DNA of 64,000 nucleotides from Levilinea sp. (GTDB taxonomy: Bacteria; Chloroflexota; Anaerolineae; Anaerolineales; Anaerolineaceae). The notes under the pieces were generated by a model that saw only the letters and a list, made by a program, of their open reading frames with translations, was not told the DNA's origin and made no database searches. Numbering within the stretch: position 1 is the stretch's first letter; the number at the start of each line of letters is the position of its first letter. Below, in pieces: positions 56,194 through 59,821 of this stretch. Location of the stretch: positions 1 to 64,000 of the forward strand of contig JARKPO010000061.1 in assembly GCA_029975215.1 (NCBI GenBank). The letters are read 5' to 3'. The translations under genes and the position numbers were made by a program.

Positions 56194-56221
56194 AGCGGCC
56201 GTTCAAAGAACGGCCGCTTTT
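56194..56221 (+). terminator. Terminator of the signalling/GT2 operon
   Basis: AGCGGCCGTTC pairs with GAACGGCCGCT around a 3-base loop, followed by TTTT. Confidence 0.9.
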
Positions 56222-56238
56222 GATTGGGCGGGGATACA

Positions 56239-56267
56239 TTGACAATAGATCATTTGTTCTATACAAT
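56239..56267 (+). promoter_or_regulatory. Promoter of the LuxR-type gene, giving a leaderless message
   Basis: TTGACA (56239-56244) and TACAAT (56262-56267) are 17 bases apart. The expected start point falls at or next to the GTG at 56274. Confidence 0.75.
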
Positions 56268-56273
56268 AAAACT

Positions 56274-56675
56274 GTGAACGCTTTGGACATCGTATGGCGG
56301 GGCGTGCGGAATTGGCTGCGGCGCAGGCGGACGTTTGCGCTGGACGTGGAATCCTATGAGCTGTTGGAGCGCATGGCAGAGCGCCAGCAGCGCACCCCTC
56401 AGGAGGTGGCCGCGGAGCTGTTGGAACAGGCGGCTCAGGCCCAGGAGCGACAATCCTGGGTGCTGACCTGTTGGGGGCAGCTTTCGCCGCGCCAGCAGCA
56501 GATCACCGCATATGTGTGCCGGGGGGATTCCACGCGGCAGATTGCGGCGCAGCTGCACATTGCGCCCACGACGGTTAAATCACACATTGAAATTGTGCTG
56601 CGCAAATTTGGGGTGAACAGCCGCGCGGCTCTGCGCCAGCACTTGGCTCCCTGGGATCTGAGCGAATACCTGTAG
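56274..56675 (+). CDS. LuxR-type helix-turn-helix protein, probably leaderless
   Basis: A 133-residue protein with a basic start, a helical coiled segment (residues about 28-65), and a C-terminal LuxR/NarL helix-turn-helix (LSPRQQQITAYVCRGDSTRQ, then IAPTTVKSHIEIVLRKFGV). It lacks a receiver or ligand domain. GTG 56274 lies 7 bases after the -10, with no ribosome site, so the message is probably leaderless. Longer frames upstream cross a terminator and are rejected. The 127 bases after it are GC-rich with several hairpins and no gene. Confidence 0.75.
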   Translation: MNALDIVWRGVRNWLRRRRTFALDVESYELLERMAERQQRTPQEVAAELLEQAAQAQERQSWVLTCWGQLSPRQQQITAYVCRGDSTRQIAAQLHIAPTTVKSHIEIVLRKFGVNSRAALRQHLAPWDLSEYL

Positions 56676-56802
56676 GGGTGGGGGTAGGACCCCCCTATGC
56701 CCCCCAGGGATGCATCCTCCCGAGGGAGGCTCCCCAGCAACCCTCCGCCAATCCTCCGGCGGGGGGATTTACAGCCTGGGGGAATTTTGCGATGATGGCG
56801 GC

Positions 56803-57354
56803 ATGGACGCTATTCGCCTGCCAACTTCCAATCAACTGTATGTGATCGCGGGCGGGTCGGGCGCGCTGCAGCGTATGCTGATTTTGACGGCGCGGCTGGC
56901 GCTGCGCGGCAGGGTATGGGTTTTGGACTGCGGCAACCGCGCCAACCCGCTGCCGGTGGTGCGCGAGCTGCGGCGACTGACGATGGACCCCGTGCGGGCG
57001 TTGGCGAATATTCAAACCGCACGAGCTTTCACCTGTTACCAGGTGCTGGCCCTGTTGGAGCAGACCTGCGCGCGCCAGGTGCGGGAGCCGGTGGTGATTT
57101 TTGACCTGCTGGCATCTTTTTACGACGAAAGCGTGCGCTATGACGAGGGGCAGCGGCTGTTGGCGGCGGCTTTAGGGCATGTGCGCGGGCTTTTGGCCGG
57201 GGCTCCGGTGATGGTGAGCGTGCGCCCGCCCCCGTCCGACTTCCCAGAGCGCGCGGCCTTCGTGCAGCGGGTCTGCGCGCAGGCGGATCAGTGCTGGGTG
57301 GAAGAATTGCCGCCCGCAATGGGCGTCTACCGGCAGGGTTCTTTGTGGAAATAG
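56803..57354 (+). CDS. Degenerate RecA-like ATPase (ImuA/RadA-paralogue type)
   Basis: A 183-residue RecA-like core. The Walker A position has IAGGSGALQRMLI (residues about 17-29), lacking the GKT/S end, so ATP hydrolysis is doubtful. A Walker B-like strand EPVVIFDLLASFYDE follows near residue 105. It is the first gene of a three-gene cassette with a 90-residue helical protein and a B-family polymerase. Inactivated RecA/RadA paralogues next to altered PolB2 polymerases, and ImuA next to ImuB/DnaE2, are known translesion cassettes. The identity is inferred from fold pattern and context. Confidence 0.6.
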   Translation: MDAIRLPTSNQLYVIAGGSGALQRMLILTARLALRGRVWVLDCGNRANPLPVVRELRRLTMDPVRALANIQTARAFTCYQVLALLEQTCARQVREPVVIFDLLASFYDESVRYDEGQRLLAAALGHVRGLLAGAPVMVSVRPPPSDFPERAAFVQRVCAQADQCWVEELPPAMGVYRQGSLWK

Positions 57355-57363
57355 AGGTGAAAC

Positions 57364-57636
57364 ATGGGCCGTACTTTACCGTCCATTACCCAATCGCTGA
57401 ACGAGGAACAGGCTGCTTTTGGCCGTTTCCGGCGGGCGCTGCGCCGTTCGGATCAGATGGCGCTGGATGAACTTTTCACCGCGGCTCGCCAGCACCTGGC
57501 AGCGGCGGCCTACGCCGCCAATTTGCTGCCGATGGAGACGTTTTTGCTGGCCATGCTGCTGGAAGAGCACAAGGAGGTCTCTCGCCTGCGGGCGCAGGTG
57601 GAGACGCTTCAGAGTCGGCTGCTGGATGACGCATGA
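57364..57636 (+). CDS. Small helical protein of the polymerase cassette
   Basis: A 90-residue, all-helical protein with a central hydrophobic helix (MALDELFTAARQHLAAAAYA, then LLPMETFLLAMLLEEHKEV) and a C-terminal coiled coil. No family motif is recognised. It starts 9 bases after the RecA-like gene and overlaps the polymerase gene by 11 bases, so it is translationally coupled. A role as adaptor between the other two is plausible. Confidence 0.65.
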   Translation: MGRTLPSITQSLNEEQAAFGRFRRALRRSDQMALDELFTAARQHLAAAAYAANLLPMETFLLAMLLEEHKEVSRLRAQVETLQSRLLDDA

Positions 57637-59821
57637 GGGCTGGCTGTTGGACCTGTATGCGGACGGCCCGCGAGGGGTGGCGCTGTGGCTGGTGACCGCT
57701 GACGACCGGCGGGTGCGGCTGTGTCAGCGCTTTCCGGTGCGTTTTTTTGCGGCGGGGCCGGGACCGCGGCTGCGGGCGCTGTGGCGTTGGCTGCGGGGGC
57801 GGGAACCTGCGCCCGGGCTGGCGCGCGAAGAGCGACGCGACCTGTTTTTGGCGGAGCGTTTGCCGGTTTTGGCGGTGGAGACGGCCGACCCGGCTGGGCT
57901 GCCGCCTTTGTTTGCGGAAGTGGAACGCGAATTCCCCGATCTGACCTATTACGATGCAGACGTGCCGTTGACCGTGCGGCATGCAGCGGCCTTTGGCTCG
58001 TTTCCGCTGGCGCGCTGCCGGGCTGAGGCGGACGAGCAGGGCAACGTGCACGCGTTTGAGGTGTTGGATTCTCCCTGGGCGTTGGACCCAGCCCCGCCGC
58101 CTTTGCGCATTTTGGAAATCAATTTGCCGGAGGGCGACCCCCAGCGTACCCCGCCCACCCGCCTGGAGCTGCGCTTTCGCGCCTGGAAGCAGACCTACCC
58201 CTGGGTGGCGGGCAGCGCACCGGCGGCCTGGCTGCGCTCGGCTTTGCAGAAATTGGATCCAGATATTGTGCTGACCGATTACGGGGATACCTGGCTGCTG
58301 CCGGAACTGCTGCGGCGGGGGCAGGCCCCGCTGAGCCGCGACCCGGCCTACCCGCTGCGCACGGTGGAAGAGCACACCTATTTTTCCTATGGACAGATCG
58401 TGTACCGCGGCCAGCAGGTGCACCTGTATGGACGTGTGCATATTGACCGCCAAAACGCCATGCTGTGGCGCGACTACGGGCTGGAGGGCATTTTGGAGAA
58501 CGCACGGGTGACGGCATTGCCCATTCAAACCGCAGCGCGCATTTCTCCGGGCACGGGGATTTCCTGCATGCAGATGCAGACCGCGCTGCGGGATGGGGTA
58601 CTGGTTCCCTGGCACAAGCAGCAGGTGGAGCAGCCGCGCAGTATGCTGAGCCTGATTCAATCCGATTTTGGTGGGCTGGTGTACCAGCCGCGCATGGGGC
58701 TGCATTTCGAAGTGGGGGCGATTGATTTTGTGTCGCTGTATCCGGCGGTGATGGTGCGCTGCAATATTTCGCCGGAGACGCAGTCGCGCCCGCTCTCACA
58801 GCCGCCCGCGCCCAACCCCGGTCTGATCCCGCGCACGCTGGCCCCGCTGCTGCATAAACGCGTGGCGCTCAAAACCTGGGCGGCCAAACTGCCTGCCTGG
58901 GACCCGCGCCGCAAAAGCATTCGGGCACGCACGGCGGCACAAAAATGGCTGCTGGTGGTGTGTTTTGGCTATTTGGGCTATAAAAACGCGCGCTTTGGGC
59001 GGATTGGGGCGCACGAGGCCGTGACCGCCGGGGGGCGCGAGGCGCTGCTGCGCGCCAAAGAGGCCGCAGAAGACCTGGGTTTTGCGGTGCTGCATTTGTA
59101 TGTGGACGGTCTGTGGGTGCAGCGGGCCGGCTGCCGCACCGCGGAGGATTTTGAGCCGCTGCTGGCCGAGGTGACGCGGCGCACGGGACTGCCCATCGCT
59201 CTGGATGGGGTGTACCGCTGGGTGGCCTTTCTGCCCTCGCGCGGCAACCCGCGTGTGCCGGTGGGCAACCGTTACTTTGGCGTGTTTACGGACGGCAGCC
59301 TGAAGGTGCGCGGCCTGGATGCGCGGCGGCGCGATACCCCGCCCTGGGTGACGGCGGTGCAGATGGGGCTGTTGGAGTGTTTGGCGCAGGCTGTCAACGC
59401 CGAAGATCTGAAACCGGCAGTGGCAGAGGCTTTGGGGCGGCTGCGGTGGGAATTAGCGCGGCTGCGCGAGGGTAAGGTGCCGCTGGAGGAACTGCTCTGC
59501 GCCCAAAAGCTGAGCCGTCCGCTGGAAAAATACACCCATCCTTCGCCCGCGGCACGCGCCGCTGGGCAGCTGCTGGCGGCGGGCAAGTGCACAGTGGCAG
59601 GACAGCGGGTGCGGTTTTTATATGTGCGCGGGGAGGAACGAGTGCGGGCCTGGGATTTGCCGCAGGACTTTGACCGGCGCTGTTTGGACGTGGGCATGTA
59701 CCGCAAGCTGGCGCTGCGGGCGGCAGCCGACGTGTTTCAGCCGTTTGGAATCGAACTGGAGGAGTTATATGCGCTTATGCACAACGCGGCCAGGGTGCCT
59801 TTGTTTCCGCTGCCGGTTTAG
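57626..59821 (+). CDS. B-family DNA polymerase with altered catalytic motif (PolB2-like)
   Basis: A 731-residue polymerase. Motif A is IDFVSLYPAVMVRCN near residue 366 (Asp kept). Motif B is KWLLVVCFGYLGYKNARFG near 440. Motif C is LYVDGLWV near 492, where YGDTDS is usual, so one catalytic Asp is lost. The exonuclease I strand reads LRILEINL with its Asp missing, so proofreading is probably absent. These changes match the bacterial/archaeal PolB2 group associated with damage tolerance. ATG 57626 was chosen: it lies where the small upstream gene ends, and residues before it are an out-of-frame artefact of that gene. Confidence 0.8.
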   Translation: MTHEGWLLDLYADGPRGVALWLVTADDRRVRLCQRFPVRFFAAGPGPRLRALWRWLRGREPAPGLAREERRDLFLAERLPVLAVETADPAGLPPLFAEVEREFPDLTYYDADVPLTVRHAAAFGSFPLARCRAEADEQGNVHAFEVLDSPWALDPAPPPLRILEINLPEGDPQRTPPTRLELRFRAWKQTYPWVAGSAPAAWLRSALQKLDPDIVLTDYGDTWLLPELLRRGQAPLSRDPAYPLRTVEEHTYFSYGQIVYRGQQVHLYGRVHIDRQNAMLWRDYGLEGILENARVTALPIQTAARISPGTGISCMQMQTALRDGVLVPWHKQQVEQPRSMLSLIQSDFGGLVYQPRMGLHFEVGAIDFVSLYPAVMVRCNISPETQSRPLSQPPAPNPGLIPRTLAPLLHKRVALKTWAAKLPAWDPRRKSIRARTAAQKWLLVVCFGYLGYKNARFGRIGAHEAVTAGGREALLRAKEAAEDLGFAVLHLYVDGLWVQRAGCRTAEDFEPLLAEVTRRTGLPIALDGVYRWVAFLPSRGNPRVPVGNRYFGVFTDGSLKVRGLDARRRDTPPWVTAVQMGLLECLAQAVNAEDLKPAVAEALGRLRWELARLREGKVPLEELLCAQKLSRPLEKYTHPSPAARAAGQLLAAGKCTVAGQRVRFLYVRGEERVRAWDLPQDFDRRCLDVGMYRKLALRAAADVFQPFGIELEELYALMHNAARVPLFPLPV

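Follow-up and report, generated by a model that had tools for sequence, protein, structure and literature searches.

Positions 56803-59821 of a 64,000 nt stretch of Levilinea sp. DNA (contig JARKPO010000061.1; hereafter called the window) encode a RecA-like ATPase, a small protein and a B-family DNA polymerase, two of which have lost residues typical of their families. Is this a functional unit for DNA synthesis across damage, and how would it be controlled? A first-pass annotation, made from the sequence alone, had read the genes as a PolB2-type cassette consisting of an inactive ATPase, a helical linker and an altered polymerase. Judged by their sequences, the three genes are iRadA, PPB2 and PolB2 and form a bacterial “PolB2 mutasome”, a type of system already reported for bacteria in PMC4104785 and PMC11791011. 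Motifs, gene order, phylogeny and the fold of iRadA all agree with the PolB2-type reading. The genes lie on the same strand, with a gap of 9 nt between iRadA and PPB2 and an overlap of 11 nt between PPB2 and PolB2, which confirms the tight spacing noticed before. Ordinary chromosomal genes flank the cassette. The features discussed below are listed in Table 1.

Table 1 Features of the PolB2 locus and its upstream region, in window coordinates.
Feature	Position	Strand	Description
Intrinsic-terminator-like hairpin	56194..56222	+	AGCGGCCGTTC-AAA-GAACGGCCGCT-TTTT, after the preceding glycosyltransferase gene; read from sequence
Promoter	56239..56267	+	TTGACA (56239-56244), 17 bp, TACAAT (56262-56267)
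LexA-box-like operator	56248..56259	.	GATCATTTGTTC, 1 mismatch to GAAC-N4-GTTC, within the promoter spacer
LuxR/GerE-type HTH protein	56274..56675	+	133 aa, GTG start; GerE E 1.4e-15; conserved upstream of iRadA
iRadA	56803..57354	+	183 aa; RadA/Rad51 fold without Walker A Lys; putative variant beta-clamp motif at the C-terminus (YRQGSLWK)
PPB2 (arCOG07300-like)	57364..57636	+	90 aa, small protein, N-terminal MGRT
PolB2	57626..59821	+	731 aa; B-family polymerase, YVD replacing DTD, decayed exonuclease; C-terminus RVPLFPLPV

At the Walker A position, the iRadA protein of the window reads GGSGALQR and lacks a GKT/S motif. Searched as a single sequence, its best Pfam match was Rad51, below the threshold (E 0.003); a family profile of 43 relatives matched RadA at 5e-12. 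The AlphaFold2 (AF2) model, with a mean pLDDT of 94, gave high scores against RadA, Rad51 and RAD51D (Foldseek E 2e-8; VIA Z about 17, rmsd about 3 Å, about 166 residues). The traits of the mutasome iRadA are all present: a RadA fold, the absence of the N-terminal helical domain and the loss of ATPase residues. The protein previously described as a helical linker does exist and can be specified further as PPB2, a named partner protein, whose length and start match the mutasome trait of about 90 aa beginning with MGRT. Of 110 PolB2 loci, 82 had a PPB2 of the MGRT type close to the polymerase gene; several of the other loci were truncated.

The polymerase matched the Pfam family PF00136 (E 1.7e-21) and the NCBIfam type B polymerase (E 4e-107). 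We aligned its motifs with those of archaeal DTD polymerases, taken from genomes in which PolB2 is present as well. In motif C, DTD is replaced by YVD, with the first Asp lost and the second (D494) kept, exactly the PolB2 substitution described in PMC11791011. The exonuclease acidic residues are lost as well, with ILEI at Exo I where the DTD outgroup has FDIE. The first-pass annotation had therefore been right about all three missing residues, the Walker A Lys, one motif C Asp and the exonuclease Asp. The motif A Asp (D367, in DFVSLYP) is retained, and both D367 and D494 are invariant in a 19-member alignment. The D(K/R) motif in the loop before the palm reads HIDRQN in the window; its Asp is kept in nearly all relatives, with variation in the second position. 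The structure model of PolB2 has a pLDDT of 88, and its nearest folds are archaeal B-family polymerases.

Motifs resembling those for binding the beta clamp occur in two of the proteins. Among the Chloroflexota iRadA tails, 42 of 53 match a loose beta-clamp motif, e.g., QPSLF or QLPLF. The window has near-motifs, namely QGSLW(K) at the end of iRadA, non-canonical in the window genus, and VPLF close to the end of PolB2. Because both tails carry only near-motifs, the clamp binder may be either iRadA or PolB2.

To place the polymerase, we calculated a maximum-likelihood tree of 106 sequences with archaeal DTD polymerases as outgroup, leaving out E. coli Pol II; the quick method and the long archaeal branches restrict its fine detail. 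All 73 bacterial PolB2 rows form a single branch (support 100), inside which the Chloroflexota sequences form a single branch of their own (support 98). The archaeal PolB2 proteins lie outside the bacterial branch, and the DTD polymerases are set apart with a support of 100. The window polymerase thus falls with PolB2 and not with the DTD polymerases, and its nearest named neighbours are from Anaerolineae, e.g., Leptolinea tardivitalis. This topology agrees with the published single transfer of PolB2 from archaea to bacteria.

The order iRadA-PPB2-PolB2 recurs in 25 of 29 relatives, which had been fetched by polymerase similarity, and judged from these sequences the recurrence far exceeds chance. 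Of the genomes sampled from the window's family, 72 of 101 carry PolB2 according to a profile search, and the gene is therefore ordinary there. A bacterial copy had been flagged as being of interest; the copy is real, but it is no rarity, as bacterial copies have been published and are common in this lineage. In a comparison of the window with a congener (G418), approximate dN/dS values were 0.04 for the HTH gene, 0.11 for iRadA, 0.14 for PPB2 and 0.05 for PolB2; all four genes are thus under purifying selection and maintained.

The region upstream points to a link with the SOS response. The stem of the terminator-like hairpin is kept in the congener, the promoter is conserved there too, and most relatives have the same layout. 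In the own genome, the boxes in the lexA and recA promoters are GAACGGATGTTC and GAACAAATGTAC, respectively, and GAAC-N4-GTTC is perfect in 26 of the 29 lexA promoters of the window's family. We counted this box within at most 200 bp of the first gene of 60 Chloroflexota PolB2 operons, whose sequences are related and do not represent 60 independent events. A perfect box was present in 35 of these 60 promoters, compared to 0.17 expected from first-order shuffles, and a box with at most one mismatch in 51, compared to 4.3 expected. The density of the box was 2.59 per kb in the operon promoters, as opposed to 0.032 per kb in the remaining sequence of these loci. The box mostly lies between TTGACA (-35) and TATAAT (-10), and it has been kept even where the polymerase shares no more than about 40-55% identity with the window PolB2. 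LexA control of the PolB2 operon across the Chloroflexota lineage is well supported as a prediction from these promoters. Because the operator has one mismatch in the window and two in the congener (GTTTATTTGTTC), LexA control of the copies in this genus is likely but weakened, and may be partial. When the own genome was scanned with a strict LexA-plus-promoter pattern, the lexA promoter was the only match, as would be expected if the operator at the cassette is degenerate. A second LexA-like gene (L115) lies at a contig edge in genome G000 (contig 30, 7-156); it may represent contamination, the bin being 7.4% contaminated, or a real paralogue.

Gene identity, motifs, operon structure, selection and the lineage-wide LexA operator, that is, sequence, comparative and structure evidence, support the mutasome explanation. 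Very probably, the locus encodes a polymerase for damage bypass, which would extend primers ending in a mispair or at a lesion and would do so without proofreading. DNA damage would activate RecA and lead to cleavage of LexA, which would allow transcription of the HTH-iRadA-PPB2-PolB2 operon. The iRadA, PPB2 and PolB2 proteins would then assemble, in published models as one iRadA, three PPB2 and one PolB2. Within this complex, iRadA might substitute for a RadA/RecA protomer and a C-terminal clamp motif might take the complex to the beta clamp, where PolB2 would extend past the lesion at the price of mutations. SOS-type translesion extension is the most likely function by homology to Dpo2 of Sulfolobus, a single archaeal genus. 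Dpo2 is active, works without proofreading and extends mispaired ends (PMC8764526); in Sulfolobus, it is the chief source of damage-induced mutation (PMC7390963).

An older view of PolB2, given in PMC4104785, would make the polymerase catalytically dead and the complex purely structural or regulatory, e.g., at stalled forks. The loss of the first motif C Asp and of the exonuclease acidic residues fits this interpretation, but the invariance of D367 and D494 is what a retained active site would show, and Sulfolobus Dpo2 is robustly active without the same Asp (PMC8764526). By this analogy, an altered polymerase need not be an inactive one, and we regard a dead enzyme as improbable. B-family polymerases are also common in mobile elements, and the cassette polymerase could in principle have entered the chromosome from a phage, a plasmid or another mobile element. 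In one close relative (L210, genome G427), iRadA and PPB2 indeed lie apart, with about 1.7 kb of additional sequence between them, while PPB2 and PolB2 are still adjacent. We nevertheless rejected a mobile origin, which appears extremely improbable given the wide distribution in the family, the single Chloroflexota branch, the chromosomal flanks and the closest relationship to cellular archaeal and bacterial PolB2.

How does the proposed mutasome compare with known systems? ImuA-ImuB-DnaE2, which the first-pass annotation had named as its analogue, serves SOS mutagenesis and includes a RecA-like protein, as is proposed for the PolB2 cassette. It relies, however, on a C-family polymerase and an inactive Y-family protein, whereas the window polymerase belongs to family B. 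The closest published analogue is rather E. coli Pol V (UmuD'2C-RecA), whose polymerase is linked to SOS and also pairs with a member of the RecA family and a small oligomeric protein; according to PMC11791011, Pol V and the PolB2 mutasome work alike. Pol V differs in its Y-family catalytic subunit, its active RecA and its unrelated small subunit. The own genome has one RecA, and the sole Y-family polymerase found in it is DinB-like, a 407-aa open frame on another contig. Sulfolobus islandicus Dpo2 (PMC7390963, PMC8764526) shares with the window the PolB2 family, a substituted motif C, the partner genes and, as predicted for the window, damage-linked regulation, but is archaeal, is not regulated via LexA and has IID in motif C in place of YVD.

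The bacterial PolB2 operons presented in PMC4104785 and PMC11791011, among them LFML04_0990-0993 of Leptospirillum ferriphilum, have the same gene content and order as the window. They also share the MGRT start of PPB2, the D(K/R) motif, the lost first DxD Asp, the decayed exonuclease, the inactive RadA and, as near-motifs in the window, the clamp-like C-terminal motifs. In contrast to them, the window has no adjoining lexA, but a putative LexA operator within its promoter and a GerE-type HTH gene as the probable first gene. The cassette itself is of a known type and common in the lineage; what the present analysis adds is the LexA operator together with the HTH gene. Neither the LexA box in the Chloroflexota operon promoter nor the frequent first position of the HTH gene is part of the published main texts. 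Models of bacterial PolB2 complexes exist in the literature, and our literature search found no experimental study of one. The lineage-wide operator would tie a polymerase of archaeal descent directly to the SOS response of bacteria. Leptolinea tardivitalis, which has the cassette and a perfect LexA box, offers a testable host, and the HTH gene provides a specific new candidate partner.

The HTH gene is probably the first gene of the operon, so that the transcription unit would start upstream of iRadA. The -10 box ends 6 nt before its GTG start codon, and a comparably short distance to the ATG is seen in many relatives, which suggests that the mRNA of the operon's first gene is leaderless. The HTH protein has a WDFxxW-like tail, which is WDLSEY in the window. 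A profile of this family gave strong matches in 34 family genomes (E at most 2e-37), with a clear gap to other LuxR proteins (E at least 2e-18). In the main text of PMC11791011, the HTH gene is not mentioned.

We tentatively consider it possible that the Chloroflexota mutasome is a four-gene, LexA-controlled SOS operon, in which the HTH protein would be a dedicated fourth component, either as a second timing regulator or as a DNA-binding accessory subunit. Among the 34 HTH-bearing family genomes, 33 have PolB2, and in 26 the HTH gene immediately precedes the cassette, on the same strand. Moreover, the LexA box precedes the HTH gene if it is present and iRadA if it is absent. Both observations speak against the HTH gene being an unrelated neighbour of a cassette with its own promoter immediately before iRadA. 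We find such an arrangement doubtful, even if 127 bp separate the two genes, some HTH copies lie elsewhere and about half of the family's PolB2 genomes lack the gene. From this last count, the HTH protein is not essential to the mutasome.

The intergenic region between the HTH gene and iRadA (56676-56802) is G+C-rich and almost identical in the congener, even though the two differ at synonymous sites. A conserved RNA or attenuator was rejected here: no fold signal was found in this region (z -0.43), and it is single-copy in the own genome. Outside of PolB2 operons, three HTH copies (L206-L208) lie just downstream of recO-like genes. Two further stand-alone copies (L203, L204) each have a TTGAC..TATAAT-type promoter that contains a perfect LexA box.
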